DNA from: Chloroflexota bacterium
GTDB taxonomy: Bacteria > Chloroflexota > Anaerolineae > Anaerolineales > Villigracilaceae
NCBI GenBank assembly: GCA_026390015.1
Contig: JAPLGS010000141.1
Span: 37,071-101,070, forward strand
Length of the DNA stretch: 64,000 nucleotides
Direction: 5' to 3'
Made by a program: the position numbers and the translations under genes. Positions within the stretch are counted from its first letter, which is position 1, and the number at the start of each line of letters is the position of its first letter. The notes under the pieces are model-generated. The model saw only the letters and a list, made by a program, of their open reading frames with translations. It had not been told where the DNA came from and did no database searches. Below, piece by piece: positions 3,623-62,931 of the stretch.

Positions 3623-3624
3623 GT

Positions 3625-4098
3625 TTGTGTCCCTATCAATTGCGCCAATTTTTGAAAGGCGTTCTCACCGTTTCGTTTGGCAGTGTTCAGGACAGTGGCT
3701 AAAACGGCATAAGTCTGAACGCCCCAATCGGAAAGGAAACTTCCCATGACTTTGCGATGAACTACGGACGATCGCAAAGCGTGTTCACAGGCATTCTTGT
3801 CAGCTGGCACATCTGTGCGATCCAGGAAGATCAAGAGCGAATCGCGTCACTTTCGATAGCGATCCAGCAGGTTGGTTCCCAAACCACTGAACCTTCGCTT
3901 CAGCAGTTGATCCAGTTTCTTCTCGATGATCGTTACCCACCTTTGATATCTTTTGTCTGTCATTTGCGCTCGCCGATTTCCCAAATGGATCGCTTTGAGG
4001 AACAAGGCTTGCATCCCTTTTGCCCACGCCAAATGAGGAGGTTTCTCGATAAAACTCTGCAGATTGCGGATCTGGTGCGCCAAGCAGACCTGGCACAT
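3625..4098 (-). pseudogene. IS66-family transposase remnant (tnpC C-terminal part)
   Basis: Reading leftwards, one frame contains QVCLAHQIRNLQSFIE (ending near 3850), typical of the IS66 catalytic core. After a frame change, the next frame carries FLDRTDVPADKNACEHALRSS and HRKVMGSFLSDWG (about 3834-3690), the signature C-terminal block with the last catalytic acidic residue region. At least one frameshift separates the blocks, and the N-terminal half is missing or unrecognisable beyond about 4100, although loosely similar sequence may extend to 4235. The similarity stops near 3625 where the integrase tail begins. It is dead and indicates past insertion at the island edge. Confidence 0.8.
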
Positions 4099-10758: not shown

Positions 10759-11736
10759 TTATTCCTCGAACTGCTCGCAGCCTTGATGTTCAAATGTCAA
10801 CAAACCTACGCGCGGACTATTTGCATTCGCACATACACCCCAATCCATACCAAGTTTGCCAGGCAATTTAAGAAAGTGCTTGCAACCGCAGGAACAATCC
10901 GCGCCGTCGCGTTCGCGCCCGTGGTAAGGTTCAAAATCAATAGGCAGATAACGACAGATGGAAAGCAAGTGTTCATGAAGGGAAGGTTTGTCGTCGCTTC
11001 CTTTTCCGATCAAATATAGGTAATCGTCCGCAAATTTCTCAAATATCATCTGCAACAGTTCTTCGTCCTCATGCGAAAACATGTAATGCTCGGGCAAGTG
11101 ATGAACTTCCATGTCGTACTTTGCCGTTTCATCATTCCATTTCGCATGGGATTGTAATCCACGATATTTGAAATGCAGCTGCGGATGCGGGTCGGGCGGT
11201 TGCGGCGCTGGCGGAGTGCGATCAAATGTTTCCCGCTCAGGCTCGCCCGTTTCGGGGTTGCGCGTCAAAACGGCTTTCAATTTGCGATCTTCAATTTCCA
11301 ACCAGACTTTGACATATACCCATTCATCTTTTGTGCTGCAACCTTGGCACTTGAATTCTTCAGCGATGAAGTAGTGTCCCGAATATTTCGGAACTTCATC
11401 GCCTACAAAGAAATGATCCATAACGTTTTCAAATTCTTTCGTTTGAATTTCCGCCAACCCCAAAGTGCGTTCCGTGCGATGCGCCTCGATCATATCGAGT
11501 GTATCCAGTTGCTCGATCCAAGCGTCAATATCTTCAAAGCCATCACGCCCTGCCCAAAAATCCTGTAAGTAGAATTTGCGCTCGCCGCGCAGGTATTCCT
11601 GCCGCGATTGGATTTGTTGCTGTTTGTATTCCATTACCTTTTGTTCCGCCTGTTCGTGAGTCAACGGCGCGTGGCGATATTGCCTCTCGCAAAAAGGGCA
11701 ATCTAATTCAGCGTAAATAGTGTCAAACATTCCCAT
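10759..11736 (-). CDS. Zinc-binding protein of unknown function, first gene of the SNF2 module
   Basis: 325 residues starting at the ATG at 11736, not at the much longer upstream frame, because a 51-residue duplicate across the junction starts with the same MGM(F/Y)DTIYAELDCPFC. The N-terminus has a CPFC half-site and a Q/E-rich helix (EQAEQKVMEYKQQQ). Near residue 105-140 are GCS and further cysteines (FKCQGCSTKDEW). The C-terminal third has a long helical stretch and CSCGCKHF, another probable zinc site. A proline-rich linker (PPAPQPPDPHPQ) is near residue 185. It has not been matched to a named family. It leads the leftward transcription unit 10759-5594, with 67 bases to the next gene. Confidence 0.72.
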   Translation of the reverse strand: MGMFDTIYAELDCPFCERQYRHAPLTHEQAEQKVMEYKQQQIQSRQEYLRGERKFYLQDFWAGRDGFEDIDAWIEQLDTLDMIEAHRTERTLGLAEIQTKEFENVMDHFFVGDEVPKYSGHYFIAEEFKCQGCSTKDEWVYVKVWLEIEDRKLKAVLTRNPETGEPERETFDRTPPAPQPPDPHPQLHFKYRGLQSHAKWNDETAKYDMEVHHLPEHYMFSHEDEELLQMIFEKFADDYLYLIGKGSDDKPSLHEHLLSICRYLPIDFEPYHGRERDGADCSCGCKHFLKLPGKLGMDWGVCANANSPRVGLLTFEHQGCEQFEE

Positions 11737-11903
11737 AAAGGCCTCATTCCAAGTTGAGGTGGTTATTATACACAAGGCGCTCCATTCAAGAAAGAATCTC
11801 CTTGCATCGAGTTTGCAAAGCCATGTTGAAAAATTCAATTTGCAAGAAAATTGGCAAAAGAGCAGCTTGACGCCGAGTGATATACTACGCCAAAAGGAGT
11901 TCC

Positions 11904-12389
11904 ATGAGCGAATATCAATACTATGGCTGGCAGGCAATAGATCGTTCCCTCACTGCGCATGAACTTGAAGAAGTAGACCGCCTTTCCAGTCACATGGATG
12001 AGGTCACATCCACCCACGCTTCAGTCACTTATTAATGGGGTGATTTCAAACACAAACCGGATCAGATCCTGCTCAAATATTTCGATGTTTTTGCGTACGA
12101 CTCCAATTTTGGATACCGGCGCGTTCTCTTTCGCATCCCCAAAAAACTGCTTGACCCTCAATCTGTGACCCCATACCTTGATGATGAGAATATCAGCCTC
12201 GAAACGCATGGAAATTTTCATATCCTCGAGCTTGCCTGCAACGAAGATTGGGATCTCCCCGCTGACGCCGAGCCAGTCATCTTCACCCCGCTCGGTTATC
12301 CAGCCGACGAGCCTGGAGCTAAAACTCGTAAGCCGCTGGCTGACCTGGTGCGCTATGAACATGGTAAAAGATTCACCTTTTTGAGTTAA
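11904..12389 (+). pseudogene. Conserved protein frame (starts MSEYQYYG) with one in-frame TAA
   Basis: From an ATG with AAGGAG seven bases upstream, one continuous frame of 162 codons is interrupted only by TAA at 12033-12035 (codon 44), between ASVTY and WGDFKHKPD. Both halves read like one protein: the stop falls where one ordinary codon (for example CAA) would be expected, before the WGDF motif. From memory, proteins starting SEYQYY with a later WGDF and YFDxFxY stretch form a widespread bacterial family, usually longer than this frame, so a C-terminal part may also be lost. It is divergent from the zinc protein gene at 11736. It could be a fresh nonsense mutation, a sequencing error or a readthrough site; I favour a pseudogene. 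Confidence 0.65.
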
Positions 12390-12665
12390 TTTAACGATAT
12401 ACTTCCCCTACTCGGAATTTAATATTCCGCCCAAAAAGGAACGAAAAATAGCTACTATAGAGCTCACGGCTCCTTAATTACCTGACTTCACGGCTACTAA
12501 AATGAGCTATCCGTGAGGTCTACTGTTAACTAAAAATTTGCTGGGGTTAACAAAGATATCAAAATTTTGATCTCTTTTTGGGAAAAAAAGAACTAATAGT
12601 TTCATCCTCGGTATTCAACCTATGGCGGAGCAGTATAATCATACTAACTGTGAAAAGAGGCTCTT
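12390..12665 (+). promoter_or_regulatory. Intergenic region with putative promoter for the small protein and Wadjet operon
   Basis: No gene is seen in these 276 bases. A perfect -10 hexamer TATAAT is at 12634-12639, 26 bases before the ATG of the 51-aa gene, with no clear -35 box (nearest GTATTC). AGAGG 6 bases before the ATG can act as ribosome binding site. This is the best candidate for the jetABCD promoter. Confidence 0.45.
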
Positions 12666-12821
12666 ATGGGAATGTATGACACAATTTACGCCGAATTGGA
12701 CTGCCCCTTTTGCGGCAGACAATATCACGATGCTCCTTTGACGCAAGAACAGGCTGAAAAAGAAATCAGGGAATACAACCAGCGTCAGATCCGATCTTGG
12801 CAGGATTTTATTGCTCCATGA
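12666..12821 (+). CDS. 51-aa truncated duplicate of the zinc protein head, coupled to jetA
   Basis: Starts MGMYDTIYAELDCPFCGRQY and ends SWQDFIAP. Residues 1-45 match the N-terminus of the 325-aa protein encoded at 11736-10759 at most positions, including the CPFC site and the Q/E-rich helix. The frame then stops: its TGA overlaps the jetA start as ATGA (12818-12821), so translation of jetA is probably coupled to it. It could be a relic of a deleted full-length paralogue whose 3' part was replaced by the Wadjet genes, or a small functional leader or zinc peptide. It is too short for routine gene calling. Confidence 0.7.
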   Translation: MGMYDTIYAELDCPFCGRQYHDAPLTQEQAEKEIREYNQRQIRSWQDFIAP

Positions 12822-14251
12822 CGAATCCATTTGATATTCTTCCCCCCAACCTCTTCAACCTTTTTACCACACAGGGACAATCAACTCTTCAGCGGCATTA
12901 CGCGGCAATCTTGTTGCGGATTTATGCGCTGGCGGAATTCAACCGCTTCGGCGTGACGCGCGAAATCGCCTTCGCTGAGATCGTGGATTATTTAAAGGAA
13001 GCCAACGCCGAAGCAGAAGTGGCGGCTGACATAGCGGATCATGAGTCGGGGGAAGCTGATTCTGTTTCGACAGCGAATCAGACTTCCGAGCAGGATTATG
13101 CGGGTTACATCATCCGCAGGCTGGCAGAGACGGGCTGGATCGAACGCGAACAACACGCTGATTATTCCGAGACGATCATCCTGCCTGATTACGCTTTCAC
13201 TCTTTTGGAAGCGCTCCGCAATATTCAGGAACAAAAGCCGCGCGAATTTACAGGGCAGTTATATGCAGCGCACCAATTGATGACTTCTTCGCGCACAAAG
13301 GATTTTTCAGCATCGCTGGCAGTGACACAAACTTATGAAAATGTGCGTCAGGTTGCGCGTGGATTAAGCGAGTTGAATCACAACATCCGCCGCTATGTGG
13401 AACGCGCCACGAAGCAAACCGATGTCGCTGAATTATTGCGAATGCAATTTGATGATTATTCGCACACGCTGGGGCCCGCGTACCATGCCTTGAAAACATC
13501 CGATCATGTTTCTCGTTATCGGCGCGGCATTGTCAATCAGGCGCAGAAGTGGTTGTTCAATGAAAAATGGTTGAAGGAAACAGCGGAGGAACTCTCCTTG
13601 CAAAGCAGGTTTACACCTGCGCAAGCCGAGCAGGAGATTGCTCACTGCCTGGATTTCATCGTCAACCAATTAGAGGGACTCGATCCACTCATCGCAGATA
13701 TTGACGTACGTCACGCCCAGTATTTACGAACATCGCTGCGTCAGGTTCGCTATCAACTCAGCAGCGCGGATGGGAATTTCAAAGACCGTTTAATTTCGCT
13801 GGCACAGCATCTTTCCGCGTTGCGTCTGGAGGGGATGATCGAATTGCCAGAAGATTCGCCACAGTTGAGACAGTTTCCCGTCAAGATTCCAGACTCGCAT
13901 GGCTTTTATACGCCGCCACAAAAACGCGCGCCGTTCATCCCCAACAATATTCTTTCGCCTATATTAGCCCCCGCTGATCTGGCTTTATTGCGCGCGGATA
14001 CCATGCGCGATGTGACTCAAGCTTTTTCACCTGATAAAGTAAATCGCAAAGCGCTGGCTATGCTCGGCAAGTTGCAGCGCTTGTCCGTGACAAAATTTCC
14101 TGAGGATGTGCGCGACGATCTGCATTGGCTGACAACCATGATCGCTTATGCTCATCATCCCGATGTTGAATATGGTCTGGATGTTATGGACGGTGACGCG
14201 GTAGCTTTGGGTGGATATCGAGTCATGCCGTTTGAGTTGGTCAAATTATAG
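12818..14251 (+). CDS. jetA: Wadjet system subunit JetA (kleisin-like)
   Basis: 477 residues. Wadjet JetABCD is an SMC-type complex that recognises and cleaves small circular DNA and so limits plasmids; JetA is its kleisin subunit. The sequence begins NPFDILPPNLFNLFTTQ, followed by winged-helix-like and long helical segments, as expected for JetA-family proteins. Recognition also rests on its place: directly ahead of a small DUF4194-like protein, a large SMC-like ATPase and a Toprim-like nuclease in canonical order. ATG chosen at 12818 within ATGA of the upstream small gene; the TTG seven codons earlier is less likely. Codon use looks like its neighbours. Which Wadjet subtype it is was not decided. 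Confidence 0.85.
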   Translation: MTNPFDILPPNLFNLFTTQGQSTLQRHYAAILLRIYALAEFNRFGVTREIAFAEIVDYLKEANAEAEVAADIADHESGEADSVSTANQTSEQDYAGYIIRRLAETGWIEREQHADYSETIILPDYAFTLLEALRNIQEQKPREFTGQLYAAHQLMTSSRTKDFSASLAVTQTYENVRQVARGLSELNHNIRRYVERATKQTDVAELLRMQFDDYSHTLGPAYHALKTSDHVSRYRRGIVNQAQKWLFNEKWLKETAEELSLQSRFTPAQAEQEIAHCLDFIVNQLEGLDPLIADIDVRHAQYLRTSLRQVRYQLSSADGNFKDRLISLAQHLSALRLEGMIELPEDSPQLRQFPVKIPDSHGFYTPPQKRAPFIPNNILSPILAPADLALLRADTMRDVTQAFSPDKVNRKALAMLGKLQRLSVTKFPEDVRDDLHWLTTMIAYAHHPDVEYGLDVMDGDAVALGGYRVMPFELVKL

Positions 14252-44284: not shown

Positions 44285-44659
44285 ATGAACGGCAGGGTAC
44301 ACCTTCTCAAGTTCCATCTAGTATGGACACCCAAACGCTGCAAGCCAGGGCTAGTTGGTGAGGTCGCAAAAGATTGTCGCATGATCATAGAAGCCAAGTG
44401 CGAGGTAAAAGGCTGGATAATAAAAGAGCTTGCGATTCAACCAGAACACAGCCATTTATTTATTCAGGTGTGGCCTGCCAACTCAGTATCCGGTGTGGTA
44501 AAGGAAATCAAAGGCATAACAGCATTTGAACTTCGCAAGAAAAATGTTCACCTCAAGAAACTTCCATCCATGTGGACGCGCGCTTATTTTTCAGCTACTG
44601 TTGGAAATGGTTCAGCACAGACTATTGAAAAATATATAGCCGCTCAAAAGGGTCTATGA
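44285..44659 (+). CDS. tnpA: IS200/IS605 transposase TnpA (Y1 HUH)
   Basis: 124 residues. HUH motif H55-S-H57 in PEHSHLFIQV and catalytic tyrosine Y117 in IEKYIAAQ; FHLVWTPKRC at the N-terminus is typical. It cuts and joins single-stranded element ends at hairpins. Slightly shorter than the usual 130-155 residues but with all catalytic parts. Its stop overlaps the tnpB start (ATGA). Confidence 0.92.
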   Translation: MNGRVHLLKFHLVWTPKRCKPGLVGEVAKDCRMIIEAKCEVKGWIIKELAIQPEHSHLFIQVWPANSVSGVVKEIKGITAFELRKKNVHLKKLPSMWTRAYFSATVGNGSAQTIEKYIAAQKGL

Positions 44660-45837
44660 TTCTTACTCAAGTATTCCGCGCGATGCAACCAAAATCCATA
44701 TTGGATGAATGTAATATGGAGTCTGGACGTATCTATACCCGCACGATGGTGGAGCACTGGCGGATATGGAGAAAACACGAAGTATGGTTGTCTCAATTTG
44801 ACGATATGCACATGAACGATTTTCTTTTCAAGGAAACCACGCTGCACGCGCATAGCAGAGACGCCGCGCAGGAAGGATTTGCCAAAGCAGCTAAGACTAC
44901 TCACGCGCTTCGCAAGGCTGGGATTGCGGACGCGCAATTTCCACACAAAACAAAATACTGGAAAACAACCGTCTGGAAAAATACAGGCATCCGGGTTAGA
45001 GACGGCATCGCTTTTCTTGCGCGAGCGAGAGGGCTCGCGCCTATTTGCGTCCAACTCCCATTCGACCTGCAACACCTAAAAATTGTGGAAGCGCGGCTGG
45101 TCTATAACCGCAAGATATCTCGCTATGAATGGCATTTCGTAATAGACGATGGAAAAGAGCCGATCATGCGTAGCGAGGGCGCAAGCGTGGGCGTGGATAA
45201 GGGAGAAATACATCCCGCAGTGATCACCGACGGCAACACGGCACTGGTAATTTCAGCGCGAGAACTTCGCTCAACAGGGCAGGGACTTGCGAAAGCGATC
45301 TCGATATTAGATGCAAGAAAAGCGAAGATGAAACGTGGGTCCAAAAGATACAAGCGCATGAGCAAGGCTAAGGCCAAAGCCCGCAGAGTTGCAAGCGCCA
45401 GACAGCGAGATATTCTACACAAGGTCTCACGTGCTGTTGTGGAATACGCTGTTGAAGCGAATGCCAAAGAGATCATTATTGGCGATGTGCGCGATATTGC
45501 CGATGGGATCAATATTGGCAAACACACCAACCAAAAGATCAGCCTGTGGCCGCATGGAAAACTAAGAAGCTATATCGCGTACAAGGCTCTTATGCAGGGA
45601 ATGGAAATTCTGCTTGAAGATGAACACCATACAACACAGACTTGCCCGAATTGTGGCTCACGCAAAAAGCCGAGCGGACGAATCTATTCCTGTGGAGAGT
45701 GTGGTTTTGTGGGACACAGAGACGTTGTAGGGGCTTCCAACATTCTCTCCCGTCGTTTGTTTGGGGAGCTTGGCAGAGTCCAAATTGCAAGTGAAATGTA
45801 TCGTCATCCCTACTTCTTGAAGCAGGGTCATGCGTAG
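44656..45837 (+). CDS. tnpB: TnpB RNA-guided nuclease with displaced RuvC glutamate
   Basis: 393 residues. TnpB proteins use an RNA from the element end to cut DNA and favour element retention. The first RuvC acidic residue is D181 (GVDKG). At the usual second site, where most TnpBs have I-E-D-L, this protein has I-G-D-V (G276-D277). A glutamate instead occurs at E323 in EDEHHTTQTCP, fitting the TnpB clade with a relocated catalytic Glu. The third residue is D356 (GHRDVVGASN). A zinc finger is formed by CPNC and CGEC. The N-terminus has FPHKTKYWKTTVW. Intact, so probably active despite the altered motif. Confidence 0.9.
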   Translation: MILTQVFRAMQPKSILDECNMESGRIYTRTMVEHWRIWRKHEVWLSQFDDMHMNDFLFKETTLHAHSRDAAQEGFAKAAKTTHALRKAGIADAQFPHKTKYWKTTVWKNTGIRVRDGIAFLARARGLAPICVQLPFDLQHLKIVEARLVYNRKISRYEWHFVIDDGKEPIMRSEGASVGVDKGEIHPAVITDGNTALVISARELRSTGQGLAKAISILDARKAKMKRGSKRYKRMSKAKAKARRVASARQRDILHKVSRAVVEYAVEANAKEIIIGDVRDIADGINIGKHTNQKISLWPHGKLRSYIAYKALMQGMEILLEDEHHTTQTCPNCGSRKKPSGRIYSCGECGFVGHRDVVGASNILSRRLFGELGRVQIASEMYRHPYFLKQGHA

Positions 45838-51618: not shown

Positions 51619-52740
51619 ATGCTCGAAACCAATCTGCAAGAAACCGCGCTTAAACAAGGGGTATCGCGGCGAGACTTCCTGAAATTCTGCTCGATGATGG
51701 CTGGCGTTCTGGCTCTGCCGCGCTCCTATTCGACTTACATCGAACAAGCTCTGGCTGCACCAAAGCGTTTGCCTGTCATTTGGTTGGAGCTTCAGGATTG
51801 CGCGGGTTGTACAGAAGCGTTGCTGCGTGCCACAGCGCCCACTGTCTCACAACTCGTTCTGGATGTACTCTCAGTGGATTACCATGAAACCATCATGGCA
51901 GCTGCGGGAGATCTAGCCGAAGCTGCGAAACAGGCCAGTATCAAGGCTGGGGGATACTTGCTTGTGGTGGAAGGTTCCATCCCAACCGGAGACGGAGGTG
52001 TTTATTGCACAGTCGGTGGGAAAACAGCTTTGCAGTTACTTGAAGAAGCCGCATCCAATGCGGTGGCTGTAGTCGCGGTGGGGAATTGCGCTTCGTTTGG
52101 AGGCTGGCCAAAAGCTGGGCCAAATCCCACAGGCGCTACTTATGTTTCAGAACTGGTAACAGACAAACCCGTAATGAATTTGCCGGGCTGTCCATATAAC
52201 CCGGTCAACCTGACAGCTGCCATCGTACATTTTCTAACTTTTGGCGAGCTGCCCGCCATGGATGATCTGCATCGTCCATTATTCGCGTATGGCGCACGCA
52301 TCCACGATAATTGCCCGCGCCGCGGTCACTTTGACGCCGGCGAATTTGTTGTCGCTTGGGGTGATGAAGGCCACAACAAAGGTTTTTGTTTATATAAGAT
52401 GGGTTGCAAAGGCCCAGTTACCTTCCATAACTGCCCCGCGGTTGGATATAACGATGGAACCAGTTGGCCTATCAAGGCCGGTCATGGCTGCATCGCTTGT
52501 TCAGAACCAGATTTCTGGGAACTCGGTGTTTACAATCTCGCGGATTTGCAACAGTACGCGCCTCCGACCACCTATGCACCGGTTCAACTGCCTACCCAGA
52601 AAGTTGATCCTGCAACTGCTGGTGTGATCGGCGCTATGGCAGGCGTCGCAGTCGGCGCAGCGGGTGTCGCCGCCTACAAAGCTCTCTCCAAATCGGACGA
52701 GGATGAATCAGCCCCGCCTGCCCAGAACGCGAAAAAGTAG
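51619..52740 (+). CDS. hybO: [NiFe] hydrogenase small subunit, Tat-exported (HybO-like)
   Basis: 373 residues. Tat signal R17-R18-D-F-L-K followed by a hydrophobic stretch. The proximal cluster has CAGCTEALLRA near residue 58, with further ligands in VGNCASFGGWPKAG, LPGCPYNP and the medial/distal cluster region (YKMGCKGP, FHNCPAVGYN, CIACSEPDFWE). A C-terminal hydrophobic helix (about 335-360, GVIGAMAGVAVGAAGVAAY) anchors the enzyme to the outer face of the membrane. It passes electrons from the NiFe site to the iron-sulfur subunit encoded next. Strong AAGGAGGT five bases before the ATG. Confidence 0.94.
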   Translation: MLETNLQETALKQGVSRRDFLKFCSMMAGVLALPRSYSTYIEQALAAPKRLPVIWLELQDCAGCTEALLRATAPTVSQLVLDVLSVDYHETIMAAAGDLAEAAKQASIKAGGYLLVVEGSIPTGDGGVYCTVGGKTALQLLEEAASNAVAVVAVGNCASFGGWPKAGPNPTGATYVSELVTDKPVMNLPGCPYNPVNLTAAIVHFLTFGELPAMDDLHRPLFAYGARIHDNCPRRGHFDAGEFVVAWGDEGHNKGFCLYKMGCKGPVTFHNCPAVGYNDGTSWPIKAGHGCIACSEPDFWELGVYNLADLQQYAPPTTYAPVQLPTQKVDPATAGVIGAMAGVAVGAAGVAAYKALSKSDEDESAPPAQNAKK

Positions 52741-52749
52741 GAGGCTGAG

Positions 52750-53622
52750 ATGACCCTTAGCCGCAGAGATTTTTTCAAAGCCGCCGGGTTGGCAATTGGT
52801 GGCGCACTCATCACAGCAGGGCCTGCTCAAGCAAGCACAGGCGAAGCAGATCCGAACGAATATGCCGCGATGCTCTATGATGCGACCATGTGCGTAGGTT
52901 GCAATGCCTGCACCAACGCCTGCCGTCAATGGAATAAAACCACGGCGGAGCCGGATGCGAGATTGCTATACGACGCTCCCAAAGAACTCTCCGCTGATAC
53001 TTGGACAATGATCCAGTTGTATCAAGGTGAGTCTGAAACATCCTTTGTCAAACGACAGTGTATGCATTGTGTTTCTCCAGCCTGTGTCAGCGGATGCCCG
53101 GTGCAGGCGCTTCAAAAGACAGCGGAAGGCCCGGTTACATACGATCAGGAACGCTGTATCGGTTGTCGTTATTGCATGTACGCCTGTCCATTCCATATTC
53201 CGCGCTTTGAGTGGGGCACAGCTCAACTCCCGGTGATCGCCAAATGCACATTGTGCGCAGACCGGCTAAAAGATGGATTACAAACAGCCTGCGCAGAACG
53301 ATGCCCGACCAGTGCGCTCATCTTTGGAAAACGCGGCGACTTGATCGCGGACGCGGAAAAACGCATCAGCGAGAATCCTGCCCGTTACGTGGACCATCTA
53401 TATGGCAAGGATGATGCGGGCGGCACTTCCGTCATGTATCTTTCCGGAGTCCCATTTGAAAAATTGGGATTGGAAGACCTCGGCACGATGCCCATCCCAG
53501 AGATCAGTGAAGGGACTGCTAATATTCTTCTGCCCGGTATTTTAGTTGGCGGGCCGATTTTGTTGGGCATGATCCGCATGACCGCCAAGCGCGGTGGCTG
53601 GGAGGACACATGGCCGCTTTAA
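52750..53622 (+). CDS. hybA: Tat-exported ferredoxin-like electron-transfer subunit (HybA-like)
   Basis: 290 residues. Tat motif RRDFFK at 5-10 and signal to about 28 (PAQAS). Four [4Fe-4S] binding sets are visible: CVGCNACTNACRQW, CMHCVSPACVSGCP, CIGCRYCMYACPF and CTLCADRL with CAERCP. A C-terminal membrane helix is about 255-275 (ILLPGILVGGPILLGMI). It links the hydrogenase dimer to the NrfD-like membrane subunit. The order small subunit, HybA, HybB, large subunit, protease is that of E. coli hydrogenase 2. Confidence 0.92.
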   Translation: MTLSRRDFFKAAGLAIGGALITAGPAQASTGEADPNEYAAMLYDATMCVGCNACTNACRQWNKTTAEPDARLLYDAPKELSADTWTMIQLYQGESETSFVKRQCMHCVSPACVSGCPVQALQKTAEGPVTYDQERCIGCRYCMYACPFHIPRFEWGTAQLPVIAKCTLCADRLKDGLQTACAERCPTSALIFGKRGDLIADAEKRISENPARYVDHLYGKDDAGGTSVMYLSGVPFEKLGLEDLGTMPIPEISEGTANILLPGILVGGPILLGMIRMTAKRGGWEDTWPL

Positions 53623-54749
53623 CCCGATCGAATAAAAACAACATCCCGATTGCCTTCTGGCCCTTGCTGGCGCTGACATTGCTTGGTATCGGTCTTGCGA
53701 TCTACCGTCTTGTAGTTGGGCTTGGCGTTTCAACGAATATGAGCGATCATTATCCGTGGGGCATTTGGATCACGGTTGATCTTTTCCTCATCCCAGTTGC
53801 AGGCGCGGCTTTCACAATTTCACTGCTCTCGTATTTCCTTGGGCGTGAAGATTATCACTCCATCATTCGTCCTGCGGTTTTGGCTGGCTTCCTCGGCTAC
53901 TGTGTTGTAGGCGTGTTGCTCTTCCTCGACATCGGCCGCTGGCCTCAGTTTTACAACATCTTTGTGCCGGGCTACATCAACTTGCATTCCTTTCTTGAAG
54001 AAGTAAGTCTGTGCGTCACGTTGTACACGCTCATTCTTATTTTGGAGATCGCGCCAGTCTTTCTTGAGAAATGGGGTTACACAGTACCTATTCGCTGGAT
54101 ACAGCGCGGTATCTTTGTCATCGCTGGCGTGGGCATTGTACTTTCGATGCTGCATCAATCCTCGCTTGGTTCGATGTTCCTCTTGATGTCGCATAAACTG
54201 CATCCGCTTTGGTGGACGCCCGCCCTGCCGCTTTTGTTTTATTTGCAGGCTGTGTACACCGGGCTTGGCGCGACCGCAATTGCCGTAAAATTGATCTGGA
54301 AGGCGATGGGATTACCGATCGACCGTGTGCTTTTTCGGCGCATCGGCCAGGCGATGAGCATCAATTTGATGTTGTACGCCGCCATCAAAGTCGGTGATTG
54401 GATGGGCGCGGGTGAAATTCCACTACTTCTTAAACCTGATGCCTTTGGCTTTCTGGCTTGGTTCCAGTTCCTGATCGGTATCGTTCTACCGCTGGCGATT
54501 CTGCTTTCGAAACTGGTCGGACATACCTCAGGCCCATTTTGGGCGGGAGTATTCGCCTTAATCGGCACATTTATCGAACGTCTGGTCGTCTCGTGGATTG
54601 GTCTTGCTGAACCCAATCCGGTTTCATATGTTCCATCGTTTACCGAGGTTTTCATCACGATCGGAATGATCGCCGGCGGGGTGCTGGTTTACGGAGCGGT
54701 CGTTCGTTACTTCAAGCTGTTCCCGGACCCCGAGCATGCTCACGCCTGA
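53610..54749 (+). CDS. hybB: NrfD/HybB-type integral membrane quinone subunit
   Basis: 379 residues with about ten membrane helices and no heme-binding signature needed by this family. Recognisable parts are PLLALTLLGIGLAIYRL, SDHYPWGIWITVDLF and LHQSSLGSMFLLMSHKLHPLWWTP, the most conserved NrfD/PsrC block. It exchanges electrons with the quinone pool and may translocate protons. Its start overlaps the ferredoxin gene by 13 bases. Confidence 0.93.
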   Translation: MAALTRSNKNNIPIAFWPLLALTLLGIGLAIYRLVVGLGVSTNMSDHYPWGIWITVDLFLIPVAGAAFTISLLSYFLGREDYHSIIRPAVLAGFLGYCVVGVLLFLDIGRWPQFYNIFVPGYINLHSFLEEVSLCVTLYTLILILEIAPVFLEKWGYTVPIRWIQRGIFVIAGVGIVLSMLHQSSLGSMFLLMSHKLHPLWWTPALPLLFYLQAVYTGLGATAIAVKLIWKAMGLPIDRVLFRRIGQAMSINLMLYAAIKVGDWMGAGEIPLLLKPDAFGFLAWFQFLIGIVLPLAILLSKLVGHTSGPFWAGVFALIGTFIERLVVSWIGLAEPNPVSYVPSFTEVFITIGMIAGGVLVYGAVVRYFKLFPDPEHAHA

Positions 54750-54791: not shown

Positions 54792-56555
54792 ATGACAAGA
54801 ATAGCGATTGACCCCATTACCCGCATCGAAGGCCATCTGCGAATCGAGGTTCAAGTGGATGCTGGCGCTGTAACAAACGCCTGGGCGTCCAGTACTATGT
54901 TCCGAGGCATCGAGATCATCCTCAAAGGACGTGACCCGCGCGAAGCCTGGGTAATGACCCAGCGTATCTGCGGTGTCTGAACGACTGTACATGCACTCAG
55001 CTCCGTGCGAGCTGTCGAAAACGCCCTAGGAATTACCATCCCGAACAACGCGCGTATTTTGCGCAACATCATTGAAGGTATTCAGTACGTTCAAGATCAC
55101 GTTATCCACTTCTATCATTTACACGCGTTAGATTGGGTGGATGTGGTCAGTGCATTGGATGCGGACCCGGTCAAGACCTCAGAAATGGCTCAAGCTAATT
55201 CTGATTGGCCAAAATCCAGTGCCGATTATTTCCAAATCGTCAAAGATAAATTAGCCGGCTTCGTCAAGAGCGGACAGTTAGGCCCGTTCGCCAATGCCTA
55301 TTGGGGACATCCCGCCTACAAACTTCCACCTGAAGCGAATCTGATGGCTGTGGCGCATTACCTCGAAGCGTTGGATTGGCAGCGAGACGTCATCCGCGCA
55401 CATGCTTTGCTCGGCGCGAAGAATCCGCATTTGCAGACCTATCTTGTCGGCGGCATGGCTTCACCCATTGATCCGACCAGTCAGGCCGCCATCAACGCAG
55501 ATACGATTGCACAGTTGCTTGGAATGTTTGCCCGCGCCAAGGAATTTGTGGATAAAGTATATCTGCCAGACGTGCTGGCTGTCGCCCCGTTCTATCTGGA
55601 TTGGGCAGCGATCGGCGGCGGCGAAGGCAACTTCCTATCTTATGGAGATTTCCCCGGCGCTGATGGCGAGCAATGGTTGCCACAAGGTTTTATTCTCGGA
55701 AAAGATCTGAGTAAAGTTTATCCGCTCGATCAAAAGGATATTACCGAGCACGTCTCTCATTCCTGGTTCAAGTATGAAGATGAGACCAAAGGCTTGCATC
55801 CGTCAGTAGGCGAGACTGTCCCGAATTACACAGGACCGAAACCGCCCTACAAATTCCTTGAGACCGATCAAAAATACACATGGATGAAAGCTCCACGCTT
55901 AAAAGAACACGCCATGGAAGTTGGTCCGCTGGCTCGAATGCTGGTAGCTTATGCAAGCGGCCACAAACGGGTTGTGGAAACTGTGGACTATGTGCTTGGC
56001 GCATTGAGCAAAGCGGCGGGAACTCCCATCGGTGCCGGTGCCCTCTTCTCGACGCTGGGACGAACCGCTGCACGTTGTATTGAGACCGTCGTAGTTGCTG
56101 AAAAACTTGGCGACTGGACAAATGAATTAATCGCCAGCATTGCAAGCGGTGATACGAAAATTCACTCCGGCGCTGAGATGTGGGATCCTAAAAACTGGCC
56201 GGCCGAAGCACAAGGCTGGGGATTCACCGAAGCGCCGCGCGGCGCGTTGGGTCACTGGGTCAGTATCAAAGATACCAAGATCGCCAACTATCAGGCGATT
56301 GTGCCAAGCACATGGAACTGCTCACCGCGTGATGAAAAAGGCGTCCCCGGCCCGTATGAATCAGCGCTGATCGGCACTCCCATCGCTGACGAAAAAATGC
56401 CGCTGGAAGTATTACGCACCATCCACTCGTTTGACCCTTGTATGGCGTGCGGCGTGCATCTGCTGGATATAGAAGGTAATGAGATCAACCAGATCAGCCT
56501 TGACGCTGCCGACCAGTATAGTAATCCGCTGTTGAAAGTTCGCGGCGCCTGCTAA
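54792..56555 (+). CDS. hybC: [NiFe] hydrogenase large subunit with in-frame TGA at a nickel-site cysteine (possible selenocysteine)
   Basis: One continuous frame of 587 residues if TGA (54978-54980, codon 63) is decoded. It starts [16 protein letters not shown], and the first nickel motif reads R-I-C60-G-V-[TGA63]-T-T-V-H-A where family members have RICGVCxxxH. The sequence after the TGA ([14 protein letters not shown]) continues as in homologues. The second nickel motif DPC550-M-A-C553-G-V-H is intact, followed by a 31-residue tail to be removed after His556 by the protease encoded next. In known [NiFeSe] enzymes Sec replaces the first Cys of the second motif, not this one. A SECIS-like stem-loop lies 17 bases after the TGA. 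Sec insertion, nonsense mutation and sequencing error all remain open. An independent start at 55005 would lack half the active site and is unlikely. Confidence 0.85.
54998..55014 (+). promoter_or_regulatory. Candidate bacterial SECIS element
   Basis: CAGCTC-CGTGC-GAGCTG forms a 6-bp stem with a 5-base loop whose second base is G and which contains GU. The stem begins 17 bases after the TGA and the loop lies 23 bases after it, within the range used for bacterial SECIS elements. It is inside the hydrogenase coding region, so codon constraints could also produce it by chance. Confidence 0.45.
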
Positions 56556-57046
56556 TGTTTGAAAGGCCTGCTTTCAAAACCCTCGTACTAGGTGTTGGCA
56601 ATAAGCTAATGTCGGACGAGGGCGTGGGGGTGCATGTAATCGAGCGTTTGTCAGCAGGCTATGGTATACCAAAAGAGATCCAGCTCCTAGACGGGGGTAC
56701 GCTAGGAATGGATCTCTTGTATTACCTTGAAGGCATCGAGAATCTCCTGCTGGTAGATGCGGTGGAAACACACAAAGAACCCGGTACGATCATTCGACTC
56801 GAAGATGACGAAGTGCCCGCTTTTCTCGCGATGAAGATTTCTCCGCACCAGATCGGCGTCCCTGATATGCTGGCCGCCGCGAGATTCAAAGATCTTTATC
56901 CGAAGAGACTCGTTCTATGGGGCATTCAACCAGAGTTAATGGAAATTGGCCTGGAACTATCTCCGCTGATCGAATCCAAAATGGATCAACTTGTGAGCAA
57001 TATGGTTGAGCAATTAAAAGCCTGGGGACACGCCGTAACTCCTTAA
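56555..57046 (+). CDS. hybD: Hydrogenase maturation protease (HybD/HyaD-type)
   Basis: 163 residues. Starts LVLGVGNKLMSDEGVGVHVIERL (Glu and Asp nickel-sensing positions in SDEGVG), then LLDGGTLGMDLLYYLEG and the His region KISPHQIGVPDML. It removes the C-terminal tail of the large subunit after nickel insertion. Its ATG overlaps the large-subunit TAA by one base. It follows the hydrogenase genes, so the operon encodes its own specific protease. Confidence 0.94.
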   Translation: MFERPAFKTLVLGVGNKLMSDEGVGVHVIERLSAGYGIPKEIQLLDGGTLGMDLLYYLEGIENLLLVDAVETHKEPGTIIRLEDDEVPAFLAMKISPHQIGVPDMLAAARFKDLYPKRLVLWGIQPELMEIGLELSPLIESKMDQLVSNMVEQLKAWGHAVTP

Positions 57047-57152: not shown

Positions 57153-57494
57153 ATGCATGAATTAGTTGTAACTCAAAGCATCCTTGACATATCCCTGCGT
57201 CACGCACAGAAAGCTGGTGCAGAAAAGATCACAGGTATTAATTTGGTGATCGGTGAATTCGCGTCCATAGTGGATGACTCGGTCCAATTTTATTGGGAAC
57301 TGTATGCCCAAGGGACCATCGCGCAAAATGCGCAGCTTCATTTCGAGCGCATCGCCGGCGAAATGACCTGTACCAACTGCAAACTTTCCTTCCATCCCAA
57401 AGACACTGACTTTGCATGCCCCGATTGTAAAAGTGAATTTGTGCAGATCACCAAAGGTGATGAGTTTCGAGTGGAAAGTATTGATGTTGAATAA
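57153..57494 (+). CDS. hypA: Hydrogenase nickel chaperone HypA
   Basis: 113 residues. It starts MHE (His2 binds nickel). The zinc site is formed by CTNC and CPDC in the C-terminal half. It delivers nickel to the large subunit together with HypB, whose gene follows after 12 bases. First gene of a hypABFCDE set. Confidence 0.94.
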   Translation: MHELVVTQSILDISLRHAQKAGAEKITGINLVIGEFASIVDDSVQFYWELYAQGTIAQNAQLHFERIAGEMTCTNCKLSFHPKDTDFACPDCKSEFVQITKGDEFRVESIDVE

Positions 57495-57506: not shown

Positions 57507-58169
57507 ATGACCATACGCGTTCCCATTGTTGAAAATATCCTTAATGCCAATGATCATTTGGCAGTGGAGAATAACTCTCGCCTTGAATCTGCGGGAGTAT
57601 ATTCCATTAATATCATGGCTTCGCCTGGTGCGGGCAAAACCTCGCTGATCGAGCAAACTCTGCCGCGCTTGAAAGATAAACTGCGCGTGGCTGTTGTGGA
57701 TGGCGACATTGCCACTTCCATTGACGCTGACCGCGCTGCGAATGCCGGCGCTCAAGCCGCGATCCAGATCAACACAGGCGGCGATTGTCATCTTGACGCT
57801 GTCATGCTGCGCGGCGCACTCGAACAACTGGACCTGACGCAATTTGACCTGCTTATCGTTGAGAACGTGGGCAACCTCGTCTGTCCGGCCAGTTTCAAAC
57901 TCGGCACTCACAAGTCCATCTTGATCGCTTCCATCCCTGAAGGCGACGATAAACCCTATAAATACCCCGGCATGTATCGGGGCGTTGACGCTTTGGTCAT
58001 CAACAAAATAGATCTTCTGCCATACGTTCCCTTCAAAATGGATTACTTCGAGCGCGGTGTCGAAGTGTTGAATCCGGGTGTGGTGACATTTCCATTATCA
58101 GCCAAAACAGGCGAAGGCATGGATGCCTGGACTAACTGGTTGGTTGAACAAGTAAAGAGTAAACGATAA
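57507..58169 (+). CDS. hypB: Hydrogenase nickel-insertion GTPase HypB
   Basis: 220 residues, a short form without the N-terminal histidine-rich nickel-storage stretch. P-loop ASPGAGKTSL near residue 36, VVDGDIATSIDADR, NTGGDCHLDA (metal-site Cys and His), ENVGNLVCPA and the NKIDLLPY base-recognition motif. It hydrolyses GTP to drive nickel insertion with HypA. Confidence 0.95.
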   Translation: MTIRVPIVENILNANDHLAVENNSRLESAGVYSINIMASPGAGKTSLIEQTLPRLKDKLRVAVVDGDIATSIDADRAANAGAQAAIQINTGGDCHLDAVMLRGALEQLDLTQFDLLIVENVGNLVCPASFKLGTHKSILIASIPEGDDKPYKYPGMYRGVDALVINKIDLLPYVPFKMDYFERGVEVLNPGVVTFPLSAKTGEGMDAWTNWLVEQVKSKR

Positions 58170-58171
58170 AA

Positions 58172-60523
58172 GTGATCATTGCAAAGCATATCCATGTGAC
58201 AGGCGTTGTGCAGGGCGTTGGCTTCCGTCCATTTGTGCATGGACTGGCAACCCGCCATGATCTGCGCGGCTGGGTATGCAACACTTCAGCAGGCGTGGAA
58301 ATTCATATTGAAGGCGAAGCAGAAAATATTCAGGCGGTTATCGAAAATTTATCTGCCGAGAAACCTCCGCTCGCCATTCTTGACCAGATAAAAATAACAG
58401 AAGTTCCAACAGAAAACTTTACAGCCTTCAACATTCAACCTTCAACACAAATTGAAGGCGCCTTCCAACCCATTTCTCCCGATGTGGCCATTTGCGCAGA
58501 TTGCGAACGCGAGATGCTGGACCCGAACGATCGGCGTTATTTGTATCCCTTCATCAATTGCACCAATTGCGGGCCGCGCTTTACGATCATTAAAAATCTG
58601 CCGTATGACCGACTCTCGACCACAATGGCGGAATTTCCGATGTGTGATGCCTGCCGCGCCGAATATGAAGATCCACTCGATCGCCGCTTCCATGCCCAGC
58701 CGATAGCGTGTCCTGATTGCGGACCTTTTGTTCAACTGAGAAATTCATCGAACAGTTCATCTTACGTTTCAAGTATTGATCTGCGCTTATCCGCGATCCT
58801 AAAAACAAGACAACTTTTACACGAAGGTAAAATTGTTGCAGTAAAGGGTTTGGGAGGATTTCACCTGGCATGTGACGCATCCAACGCAAATGCGGTGGAA
58901 GAGCTGCGAAGTAGAAAAGGTCGTGCGGGCAAACCTTTTGCGTTGATGTTCGCCGACATAAACGAGATTCAAAATTATTGCGAGATCAATGAGGCAGAAC
59001 TTGCCTTGCTGAGAGGGCACGAAAAACCGATCGTATTATTGAACGCGTGGGAAGAAAATAAAATCGCCAAAAATGCTGCGCCTCTAATGGATACGCTTGG
59101 CGTAATGCTGGCTTACACGCCGTTGCACCATCTTCTGCTAAACCAAACCGATCCCATGCTCGCCAAACAACCTGCGCCATCCTTATTAATAATGACCAGC
59201 GGAAACTTCAGTGAGGAACCAATTGCAATCGATAATGAAGATGCGCTTGAAAGACTTGCGCCGATCGCAGATGCATTCCTTTTGCATAACCGAACCATTC
59301 ACATTCGCTGTGATGATTCGGTGGTTAGAGTTGATAGTCAAAGATCGAAGGTGGAAGGTCAACCGACTTTTGATTATCGGCCTTCGACAATTTATCTAAG
59401 ACGTTCACGATCTTATGCACCCTACCCTGTTGCATTGCCGTTTGATTCAAAACCAACGCTGGCAGTCGGTGGCGAATTGAAAAACACTTTTTGTCTCACG
59501 CGAGATCGATACGCATTCCTGAGTCAACACATTGGCGATATGGAAAATGCCGAAGTCTATGAATCATTTGAACAAAATATCGAACATCTTTCGCGTTTGT
59601 TTTGCGTCCAGCCTGAGATCATCGCTTATGACATGCATCCAAATTATTTCACAACACAATGGGCGTTATGGTCGCAGCGATCAAACCCCGATACTAAATT
59701 CGTTACAATTCAACACCATCATGCGCACATCGCAGCCTGCATGGCAGATAATAAATTGGACGACCGCCAACTGATCGGCCTGTCATTTGATGGAACCGGA
59801 TACGGAACAGACGGCGCGATCTGGGGCGGAGAAGTACTACTCGCTTCTTACGCAGACTTTGAGCGGATTGCTCACCTTGAATATTTGCCACTGCCCGGCG
59901 GCGACTCTGCCACCCAAAATCCGTGGCGAATTGCAGTGGGTTATGCTGAATCGCTGGGACTCGATATTGGAAATTTGCCATTTCTGGAACCCATTGACTC
60001 GCAAACTGTGGAAATTGTCCGCAAGCAGGTGCAAAAGAAATTGAATACGCCGCAAACTTCGAGCATGGGACGTCTCTTCGACGCGATCAGTTCACTGATC
60101 GGGATCAGGAATCAGGTCACGTATGAAGCGCAAGCTGCCATCGAGATGGAAATTCTGTCAAAGAGATTCATCAGCACAACGAATCCATATACCTTTGAAA
60201 TGGAGAATGAAATCATTCGAGTCGGAGAGCTGCTTAAGCAGATCATTCAGGATGTGAAGTCCGATCAAAAAGTTGGAATTATCGCCGCCCGTTTTCACCA
60301 TACCGTGTGCGCGATGGCAGTTGAGGCCAGCAGGAGAGTTCGCCAAAAAACAAAAATAAATGAAGTGGCGCTCTCGGGTGGCGTTTGGCAAAACCAAACT
60401 CTGCTTGACCTTACGCGCTCAAGTTTATTGCGCGAAAATTTTGTCGTTTATACTCATCAACAAACTCCTGCCAATGACGGCGGACTCGCGCTCGGGCAGG
60501 CGGCGATCGCCAATTTTCAATAG
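58172..60523 (+). CDS. hypF: Carbamoyltransferase HypF
   Basis: 783 residues, GTG start two bases after the hypB stop. Domain order: acylphosphatase (GVVQGVGFRPFVHGL, about 10-90), two zinc fingers (CADCEREML...CTNCGPRF and CDACRAEY...CPDCGPF, about 108-190), YrdC-like (KGLGGFHLACDA, about 210-390) and a Kae1-like C-terminal domain (QHHHAHIAACMAD, SFDGTGYGTDGAIWGGE, LSGGVWQN). It transfers carbamoyl from carbamoyl phosphate to the HypE cysteine for cyanide ligand synthesis. Length is normal. Confidence 0.96.
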   Translation: MIIAKHIHVTGVVQGVGFRPFVHGLATRHDLRGWVCNTSAGVEIHIEGEAENIQAVIENLSAEKPPLAILDQIKITEVPTENFTAFNIQPSTQIEGAFQPISPDVAICADCEREMLDPNDRRYLYPFINCTNCGPRFTIIKNLPYDRLSTTMAEFPMCDACRAEYEDPLDRRFHAQPIACPDCGPFVQLRNSSNSSSYVSSIDLRLSAILKTRQLLHEGKIVAVKGLGGFHLACDASNANAVEELRSRKGRAGKPFALMFADINEIQNYCEINEAELALLRGHEKPIVLLNAWEENKIAKNAAPLMDTLGVMLAYTPLHHLLLNQTDPMLAKQPAPSLLIMTSGNFSEEPIAIDNEDALERLAPIADAFLLHNRTIHIRCDDSVVRVDSQRSKVEGQPTFDYRPSTIYLRRSRSYAPYPVALPFDSKPTLAVGGELKNTFCLTRDRYAFLSQHIGDMENAEVYESFEQNIEHLSRLFCVQPEIIAYDMHPNYFTTQWALWSQRSNPDTKFVTIQHHHAHIAACMADNKLDDRQLIGLSFDGTGYGTDGAIWGGEVLLASYADFERIAHLEYLPLPGGDSATQNPWRIAVGYAESLGLDIGNLPFLEPIDSQTVEIVRKQVQKKLNTPQTSSMGRLFDAISSLIGIRNQVTYEAQAAIEMEILSKRFISTTNPYTFEMENEIIRVGELLKQIIQDVKSDQKVGIIAARFHHTVCAMAVEASRRVRQKTKINEVALSGGVWQNQTLLDLTRSSLLRENFVVYTHQQTPANDGGLALGQAAIANFQ

Positions 60524-60538
60524 AGATGGAGGTATCTC

Positions 60539-60796
60539 ATGTGTCTCAGTATCCCCGGCAAGATCACGGAAGTTTACGAAGATGGTTCGCTCATCATGGG
60601 CAAAGTGGATTTCGGCGGTGTCCTCAAAGAAGTGTGCCTTGACTACGTGCCAGAAGCGCAGACGGGGCAGTATGTCTTGATCCACGTTGGTTTCGCCATC
60701 AGCGTTTTAGATGAAGACGAAGCGATGGCGCGCATGGATTTGCTGCGCGAGATCGAGAGTTTTGAAGAAGAATTAAACCCCGATGAAATACGTTGA
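60539..60796 (+). CDS. hypC: Hydrogenase maturation chaperone HypC
   Basis: 85 residues. Starts MCLSIPGKI with the essential Cys2, and continues [32 protein letters not shown], the OB-fold core. It carries the Fe(CN)2CO unit from HypD to the large subunit. GGAGG lies eight bases before the ATG; its end overlaps the hypD start by 14 bases. Confidence 0.96.
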
Positions 60797-61886
60797 CGAA
60801 TACCGCGACCCCGCGCAAGTAAAATCTTTGCTTGAAGAGATCGCTAAAATAGTCAGCCGCCCATGGACGTTGATGGAAATTTGCGGCGGACAAACTCACG
60901 CTTTCCTTCATCATGGCCTCGACGATATGCTGCCGGGTGAAATCGAATTAGTGCATGGGCCAGGCTGCCCCGTTTGCGTAACTCCGCTTGAGCAGATTGA
61001 TCGCGCACTGGCAATCGCTGCTCGTCCGGAAGTTATCTTCACATCCTACGGCGATATGCTGCGCGTGCCCGGCTCGACTGTTGACCTGTTCAATGTGCGC
61101 GCCAAAGGCGGGGATGTGCGCGTGGTGTATTCTCCGCTTGAATCGTTGAAGATCGCGCAAGCTAATCCTGATAAACAAGTTGTCTTTTTCGCGATCGGTT
61201 TTGAAACCACCGCGCCCGCCAACGCGATGGCTGTCCTGCAGGCGCAAAAACAAAATATAAAAAACTTTTCCGTGGTGGTCTCGCATGTGTGCGTTCCGCC
61301 CGCCATGGAAGCTATTTTAAGTTCAAAGCATAATCGCGTGCAAGCCTATCTCGCGGCGGGACATGTCTGCGCGGTGATGGGATATCACGAATATCCACCG
61401 ATCGCCGAGAAATATAAAGTACCAATCGTGGTCACGGGTTTTGAGCCAGTGGATTTGTTGCGCGGCGTATTGACGGCGATAAAGCAATTGGAAGCGGGTA
61501 AAGCTGAAGTTGAGAATGCTTATGAACGCGCCGTGACCTTGGAAGGAAATTTGCCCGCGCAAAAAGTTATCAATACTGTCTTGCAGCCTGTAGATCGAAA
61601 GTGGCGCGGCATTGGAATGATCCCCAAGAGCGGCTGGGGCTTGCGCCCGGAATTTGAATCCTTCGATGCAGAAACGCGTTTTTCTGTCGGCGAGATCGTC
61701 ACACAAGAATCACCGTTATGTATTGCGGGAGAAATTCTGCAAGGAATTCAGAAACCGCCGCAATGCTCAGCGTTTGGAAAAGAATGTACGCCATCAACCC
61801 CACTCGGCGCGCCGATGGTTTCTGCGGAAGGCGCGTGCTCGGCTTATTATCGCTATCACCGCGAGGCTGTTTTTCATGAAAGATGA
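60783..61886 (+). CDS. hypD: Hydrogenase maturation protein HypD
   Basis: 367 residues. Key blocks are [20 protein letters not shown] (catalytic Cys near residue 38), [11 protein letters not shown], the [10 protein letters not shown] stretch and a C-terminal [4Fe-4S] region with cysteines in [17 protein letters not shown] and GACSAYY. It assembles the iron-cyanide-CO centre with HypC and HypE. Overlaps the HypE start by 11 bases. Confidence 0.96.
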
Positions 61887-62931
61887 ATTTGATTTCGAAG
61901 GCTACACCTGTCCTGTTCCGATCAAGCCAAATGATACCGTAGTGCTTGGCCACGGTTCTGGCGGACGATTGAGTCACGACCTGATCAACAGACTCTTCCT
62001 GCCTGAGTTGGGCAAAGCCGCGCCGCGCGCATTGGACGACTCAGCGATCGTGAATATCAACGGGCAACGACTCGCGCTGACAACTGACTCACACGTTGTC
62101 TCACCGCTCTTCTTCCCCGGTGGAGATATTGGCCGCCTCGCGATCTGCGGTACGGTCAATGATCTGGCGATGGTGGGAGCTAAACCCATCGCGCTTACTT
62201 GTGGATTTGTTATAGAAGAAGGATTGTCGTTTGAGATTTTGCAGCGCGTGGTTCAATCTATGCGTGATTCAGCGGCGGAAGCGGGCGTCTACATCGCGGC
62301 GGGTGATACGAAGGTTGTCCAAAAAGGCGGCGCGGACAAACTCTTTATCAATACCGCCGGCATTGGATTTGTTGAATCTACGATCAATATTTCCGGCGCA
62401 AACGCGCGAGTGGATGATGTGATCATCATCTCCGGCACACTGGGTGATCACGGCATCGCGGTCATGTCTGCGCGAGAAGGATTAAATTTTGAAACCGATT
62501 TGAAATCAGATGTCGCGCCGCTCAATCATCTTATCGCGGCGATGATCCAGGCCGGCGAGATCCATGTACTGCGTGATCCAACTCGCGGCGGACTGGCCAC
62601 TACCTTAAATGAAATTGCAATTCAATCAAATCTCACTGTTGAATTGCAGGAGACTGCGCTGCCTGTCAAGCCACAAGTGCACGCTGCCTGTGAAATGCTT
62701 GGCTTTGATCCGCTGTATGTTGCCAATGAAGGGAAATTGGTTGCATTTGTCAAAGCCGAAGATGCCGAAAAAATCCTTTCGGTCATGCACCAGACCAGAT
62801 ACGGGGAAGAGGCGGTCATCATTGGCAAAGTCGTCCAAACAAAAAATCCGCACGTCAGGTTGCGGACTGCAATCGGGGGAACTCGTTTGATCGATATGTT
62901 GCCCGGGGAAATGCTTCCGCGAATTTGTTAA
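61876..62931 (+). CDS. hypE: Hydrogenase maturation protein HypE
   Basis: 351 residues from the ATG at 61876; the longer open frame upstream only shadows hypD. The PurM-like fold starts with [14 protein letters not shown], then [22 protein letters not shown] (ATP site) and [15 protein letters not shown]. It ends PRIC, whose last Cys accepts carbamoyl from HypF and is dehydrated to thiocyanate, the cyanide donor. Complete hyp set closes here. Confidence 0.95.

Follow-up and report, generated by a model that had tools for sequence, protein, structure and literature searches.

The window, the whole stretch of 64,000 nucleotides of Chloroflexota DNA that was analysed, carries a hydrogenase operon whose large-subunit gene contains an in-frame TGA codon. 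In the reading to which we assign a probability of about 95%, this gene would encode a natural selenoprotein, the large subunit of a periplasmic [NiFe] hydrogenase of the Hyb type, with UGA codon 63 being read as a selenocysteine (Sec) that bridges nickel and iron. The analysis showed conservation of the TGA codon, a covarying hairpin, the Sec machinery and purifying selection; the insertion of Sec, its placement at the metals and a benefit from it are inferences. The conserved TGA and the Sec machinery support the original prediction, according to which Sec at the second N-terminal Cys would make a new kind of selenohydrogenase; the hairpin, a double form of the motif and the occurrence in several phyla were not part of that prediction.

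In the proposed mechanism, SelB with Sec-tRNA (anticodon UCA) would bind the hairpin listed in Table 1 and decode UGA codon 63 as selenocysteine. By homology, Sec63 would be the second ligand provided by the N-terminal motif (L1), so that nickel and iron in the mature site would be linked by a Ni-Se-Fe bridge. Most relatives with a TGA have UGA at the first L1 Cys codon as well (UxxU, as opposed to CxxU in the window), which would give a terminal and a bridging selenolate.

The large-subunit gene, its operon and the likely fold of the protein

Re-reading of the large-subunit gene (ATG 54792-54794, stop codon 56553-56555, 587 codons) confirmed that an in-frame TGA stands at the second L1 Cys with a good frame on both sides. 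It is the sole in-frame stop of the gene, lies in the context RICGV-U-TTVH and is aligned with a conserved Cys, as is characteristic of selenoprotein genes. Mechanical frame calling places the start at GTG 55005 and so leaves L1 out of the protein, which shows how genes of this kind can be overlooked. Read through the TGA, the protein has all features of a group 1 [NiFe] large subunit, namely the PF00374 domain, the motifs L1 (RxCGxC) and L2 (DPCxxC) with U for C, and a fold extending over the whole length. The partner small subunit, the protease and the hyp genes are all present beside it (Table 1). The other subunit and maturation genes, which had been described as intact, are indeed open frames with matching families in profile searches. 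The hypE frame as listed overlaps hypD and begins inside it with TTG; judged by the translation, its true start is probably at ~61880. Elsewhere in the window (44285-45837), a gene for an IS200-type TnpA adjoins one for a TnpB/Cas12f-like protein, which together represent an IS200/IS605-type element.

Table 1. Features of the hydrogenase operon, with positions counted from the first letter of the window
Feature	Position	Strand	Remarks
Hydrogenase small subunit with Tat signal	51619..52740	+	TIGR00391 429 bits, TIGR01409
HybA-like iron-sulfur subunit	52750..53622	+	NF008134 272.8 bits, cut-off 263
NrfD/HybB-like membrane subunit	53610..54749	+	NF008133 250 bits (below cut-off 450), PF03916
[NiFe]-hydrogenase large subunit	54792..56555	+	587 residues read through TGA; PF00374 755 bits
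Cys60, first L1 Cys	54969..54971	+	TGC, intact; codon is TGA in UxxU relatives
TGA, putative selenocysteine codon 63	54978..54980	+	at the second L1 Cys; by homology, position of the bridging ligand
Putative SECIS hairpin CAGCTC-CGTGC-GAGCTG	54998..55014	+	17 nt after TGA
L2 motif DPCMAC, Cys550 and Cys553	56439..56450	+	TGT 56439-56441, TGC 56448-56450, both intact
HybD-type maturation protease	56555..57046	+	TIGR00140 155 bits, cut-off 151.8
hypA	57153..57494	+	PF01155
hypB	57507..58169	+	PF02492; named by position and family
hypF	58172..60523	+	HypF domains
hypC	60539..60796	+	PF01455
hypD	60783..61886	+	PF01924 502 bits
hypE	61654..62931	+	AIRS domains; named by position and family

Each of the two motifs of [NiFe] hydrogenases provides a terminal ligand with its first Cys and a bridge between nickel and iron with its second. 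The closest solved chain to the large subunit is 3myr (691 bits); the chains of Hyd-1 and Hyd-2 reach ~534-628 bits, and classical [NiFeSe] chains score lower, with at most 330 bits. An AlphaFold model built from 23 sequences, those of the window and of loci from the pattern scan described below, had a pLDDT of 76 and a pTM of 0.81. When superposed with VIA-align on Foldseek's top chains only, it matched 3myr with a Z score of 42.8 and an rmsd of 2.8 over 535 aligned residues at 54% identity. Confidence was low for residues 536-562, in the vicinity of the second metal motif, and because the model is weak there the positions of the active-site residues are taken from sequence alignment. This weakness leaves some room for the idea that Sec is inserted but the protein is no working hydrogenase, or that residue 63 does not bridge nickel and iron in an altered site. 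We consider this unlikely, since both metal motifs, the small subunit, the protease and the hyp genes have been kept, the protein is 44-54% identical to the standard [NiFe] enzymes among the solved structures listed, with Z scores of up to 42.8, and most residues round L1 are invariant.

Selenocysteine machinery and the reading of UGA

The genome from which the window stems is a draft of 177 contigs (4.3 Mb, 95% complete). A check for selA, selB, selC and selD in this genome had been proposed, and all four were found, with scores of 64.4 bits for tRNA-Sec (anticodon UCA), 360 bits for SelB, 556 bits for SelA and 356 bits for SelD. Its selD also has an in-frame TGA, in the context CAG-U-ASK. 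Typing of the tRNAs (46 RF00005 matches and tRNA-Sec) revealed the anticodon UCA in tRNA-Sec only, GCA in tRNA-Cys and CCA in tRNA-Trp.

These assignments bear on the question of whether UGA might be decoded as cysteine or another ordinary residue, with no selenium involved. A tRNA-Cys with the anticodon UCA is a known recoding, and the homologues of the large subunit have Cys at the position in question. We nevertheless regard such a decoding as very unlikely, since among the typed tRNAs of the genome UCA is found on tRNA-Sec alone, as opposed to GCA and CCA on the tRNAs for Cys and Trp, and since SelA and SelD are present; at a completeness of 95%, a missing tRNA is conceivable.

Within 33 TGA-bearing genomes, tRNA-Sec was found in 30, SelB in 28 and both in 27. 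A match to tRNA-Sec was missing in three and to SelB in five; both were missing in two, which are 72% and 85% complete. The tRNA-Sec matches of genomes G235 and G072 were weak (50 bits), and second, perhaps Ser-like, matches also reach this level. As tRNA-Sec was also present in 25 of the 32 Cys-only genomes, the Sec machinery is needed but does not discriminate between the two types of gene. Outside the genomes named Chloroflexota, 26 of 30 tested genomes of pattern-scan loci had tRNA-Sec, two of these matches being near 50 bits. In the 60 of the 119 listed pattern loci searched with ARAGORN, no selC linked to the operon was seen. On contig C103 of genome G109, a selB match (2627-3712) lies ~8 kb from a UxxU hydrogenase gene (11721-13421).

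Conservation of the TGA codon and of the SECIS hairpin

Relatives were collected in two protein searches, the first in 61 genomes (the same genome, the same genus and the same order) and the second in 396 genomes of the class, 66 of which had a homologue at E <= 1e-60. The alignment of close homologues, suggested earlier as a way of telling TGA from TGY, showed that TGA is kept in sister genomes and in many other species. The same TGA is present in G008 (95.9% DNA identity over 4758 bases) and in G016 (82.7% DNA identity), and in G052, which belongs to another family, both L1 Cys codons are TGA; G022, with 80% protein identity, has Cys at L1. Of the 77 loci obtained from both searches, from which class-search fragments without the L1 region were left out, 35 had TGA at L1 (8 CxxU and 27 UxxU). 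The other 42 comprised 32 CxxC genes with a readable motif and 10 genes outside the motif pattern, which on re-reading had Cys at both L1 positions. UxxU, found for example in L021, L048 and L050-L053, and in L116 from the pattern scan described below, is therefore commoner than the CxxU of the window. TGA at the first L1 Cys alone occurred in none of the 67 homologues with a readable L1, and L2 was Cys-Cys in all 61 of them in which it could be read. Among 20 remote loci outside the 77 (L027-L046), both L1 positions were Cys wherever the motif was matched. A sample of 400 genomes from the whole phylum gave matches outside the class that were nearly all listed without an internal stop; the seven that were read consisted of one CxxU gene with the hairpin (L243), five CxxC genes and one without a motif by the pattern (L244).

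From the start to the L2 motif, the 35 TGA genes contained no stops other than TGA in place of the first or second L1 Cys codon. Other stops were present in 2 of the 32 Cys-type genes (TAA in L077 and TAG upstream of the motif in L081), so that decay looks different from the pattern of TGA at L1. Purifying selection on the part of the gene that follows the TGA is strong, with dN/dS values of 0.015-0.15 in 13 of 14 pairs and saturated dS in the remaining pair, L017-L047.

The spread of such genes was followed by scanning ~85,000 species genomes with the DNA pattern RI[C/U]GV-TGA-TxVH, of which the hairpin is not a part. The scan yielded at least 119 loci, at least 83 of them UxxU and at least 36 CxxU, and each of the 119 matches listed could be read as this motif with hydrogenase-like surroundings. 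According to their titles or NCBI names, the matches listed belong to the Nitrospirota (52), Chloroflexota (43), Thermodesulfobacteriota (10), Myxococcota (4, mostly under old 'Deltaproteobacteria' names), Pseudomonadota (1) and Bacillota (1), with no phylum given for 8. To judge by the titles, the genomes behind the named loci were assembled from metagenomes or are of otherwise uncultured origin. Past the second TGA, the frame ran for 500-540 codons in 89 of the 119 matches listed and reached the end of the stretch without a stop in 28; early stops were seen in two, L121 (428 codons) and L177 (164 codons). The latter is a UxxU gene in the Nitrospiraceae chromosome record CP070788.1, its stop being counted from the second TGA. 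Pooled with the 35 TGA genes, the pattern loci provided at least 127 distinct 90-nt contexts (at least 90 UxxU and at least 37 CxxU). The hairpin-type survey, the synonymous-shuffle test and the extra-stem count given below, as well as the tree and the protein-column comparison of the last section, used 80 of the 119 listed loci.

According to the accessible text of PMC13188914, a bacterial SECIS has a stem of 4-16 bp and a loop of 3-9 nt with a G in its first two positions, located 16-37 nt from the UGA. The hairpin of the window fits this model, with a stem of 6 bp, the loop CGTGC and a distance of 23 nt from UGA63 to the loop. All six of its pairs are kept in 35 of the 35 TGA genes. Three pairs change on both sides, the first between A-U, U-A and G-C, the second between G-C and C-G, and the third between C-G and U-A. 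The covariation score was 0.448 compared to 0.116 in shuffles, with 0 of 500 shuffles reaching it (33 distinct rows). At the same positions of 32 Cys homologues, 51.0% were paired versus 50.7% after shuffling. The changes in the hairpin alter the residues flanking SVR (Ser, Cys or Ala before it and Ala, Gly or Ser after it), so it seems to be the RNA rather than the protein that is kept. The 69-nt stretch round the TGA of the window showed no unusual stability (z -0.71), and at lowest energy it adopts another fold; the case for a SECIS rests on the covariation.

Different hairpins were found in other lineages: many Nitrospirota have ACCGCCUC-GGU-GAG(A)GCGGU, and Desulfobacterales have CUCGGUC-CGGGC-GAUCGAG. 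Over the pattern matches listed and the 35 genes, a rule-fitting hairpin of -6 kcal/mol or lower was present in 117 of 127 distinct TGA contexts; the corresponding figures were 3 of 32 for the Cys rows and 11% for 2300 synonymous shuffles. One of the 10 contexts among the matches listed that lack a strong hairpin, L217, was cut off or too short. Since the loop is 23 nt away from the second UGA and would be 32 nt away from a first one, both within the limits of 16-37 nt, one hairpin could serve both, and it probably does so in UxxU genes. An extra stem, GACGG-(6 nt)-CCGUC, precedes the SECIS hairpin within the first 17 nt after the second UGA; among Chloroflexota it was present in 23 of 30 UxxU contexts, in 4 of 13 CxxU contexts and in none of the 32 Cys rows. 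We discarded it as a general separate SECIS of the first UGA because it occurred in 0 of 28 Nitrospirota UxxU contexts.

That TGC or TGT became TGA through an error of sequencing or assembly, or through decay of the gene, is hardly credible, even though one base separates TGA from either Cys codon and the genome is a draft: the same TGA recurs in many separate genomes, which makes a base error untenable, it does so at the two L1 Cys codons only, and it is followed by a covarying hairpin and by codons under purifying selection. The one-base error, previously named as the main alternative, was rejected because of the conservation of the TGA in separate genomes.

Relation to known hydrogenases and evolutionary history

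The gene order of the operon, including an NrfD-like subunit, resembles that of E. coli hydrogenase-2 (HybOABC), and this enzyme and Allochromatium HydSL (3myr) are the best matches in structure and sequence. Both have Cys at all four ligand positions. When the NCBIfam models of Hyd-2 were applied, HybA exceeded its cut-off (272.8 of 263), and HybC (622 of 969), HybB (250 of 450) and HybO (368 of 659) scored below theirs.

With the [NiFeSe] hydrogenases, such as HysAB of Desulfovibrio and Desulfomicrobium and VhuU and FrhA of methanogens, the window group shares the fold, Sec as a nickel ligand, and UGA with a SECIS. In the known [NiFeSe] enzymes, however, it is the C-terminal motif that contains Sec, with the pattern UxxC (PMC13188914 and PMC4730141, as far as their accessible text goes), at the position of C546 of Hyd-2 (accessible text of PMC11212049), whereas in the window group L2 is Cys-Cys and Sec would belong to L1, with the pattern CxxU or UxxU. 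The label of a classical [NiFeSe] hydrogenase was rejected for the large subunit on account of TGT at the first L2 Cys, the Cys-Cys L2 motif and scores below the cut-offs of the NCBIfam NiFeSe models, 416.7 of 780 for NF045518 (HysA) and 555.7 of 600 for NF033181. Judged by these differences, the group looks like a distinct natural class with a bridging selenolate, usually accompanied by a second, terminal one.

The available parts of two selenoproteome reviews, of 2022 and 2026, give UxxC for hydrogenase alpha subunits. Natural selenohydrogenases are described in the literature searched, as far as its text was accessible, as having a single Sec, which takes one of the four nickel-ligand positions. 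In the open PMC literature, which contains no preprints and few subscription papers, we found no report of an N-terminal Sec in a hydrogenase large subunit, nor, in the accessible parts of the open literature searched, of a natural enzyme with selenium at the place bridging nickel and iron. Two Sec residues two codons apart are also found in Prx-like and mercuric-reductase-like UxxU selenoproteins, which are not hydrogenases and, in the accessible text of PMC9312934 and PMC13188914, are not listed as having metal-bridging ligands.

Chemists have asked why the natural ligand position is special, and the other three replacements were built by hand in Hyd-1 and Hyd-2 (PMC11212049; the earlier Hyd-1 Cys-to-Sec study is known to us as told in the accessible text of this paper and of PMC9961374). 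The Hyd-2 variants C61U, C64U, C546U and C549U were all active, below the native level, in the part of PMC11212049 available, which suggests that a bridging Sec is chemically workable. By alignment codon 63 corresponds to C64, so that C64U is the substitution of the window; the Hyd-2 variants described there were obtained by UAG-directed insertion in the laboratory with one Sec each, whereas the window group would be natural and often double. Evolution would thus appear to have used two of those other ligand positions, widely and often together. What a bridging Sec is good for can only be guessed: easier recovery from or protection against oxidation, a tuned H2 chemistry or a shifted catalytic bias. 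The group offers ready enzymes with which to probe the effects of bridging or double selenium on oxygen tolerance, catalytic bias and maturation, and with the UxxU genes one can ask whether a single bacterial SECIS is sufficient for two UGA codons.

Taken over all loci, we find it likely, with less assurance than for the window gene itself, that there is a multi-phylum natural class of hydrogenases with a selenolate bridge between nickel and iron, in which most members would have one SECIS, two Sec two codons apart and a nickel with terminal and bridging selenium, and in which Sec sites have repeatedly arisen or been lost; this class would include a remote clade, mostly of Desulfobacterota, whose SECIS elements are of other types. 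In a quick, unrooted tree of 112 large subunits, computed with the columns from L1 to the hairpin omitted, we counted 17 changes among the states CC, CU and UU. By site, 8 changes fell on the second Cys and 12 on the first; as the root was not inferred, gains and losses of Sec are indistinguishable in these counts. Comparison of the protein columns outside L1 gave none that clearly separates Sec genes from their Cys neighbours, and two weak ones (positions 358 and 551). The remote clade consists of eight CxxU genes (L122, L132, L154, L156, L165, L171, L173 and L175; seven from Thermodesulfobacteriota and one from Nitrospirota) on a branch of 0.99. They have other hairpin types, and the three measured show 48-50% identity to the protein of the window; this clade possibly represents a second, independent origin. 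In two genomes, G235 (L047 and L078) and G108 (L070 and L080), a CxxU gene and a UxxU gene occur together.
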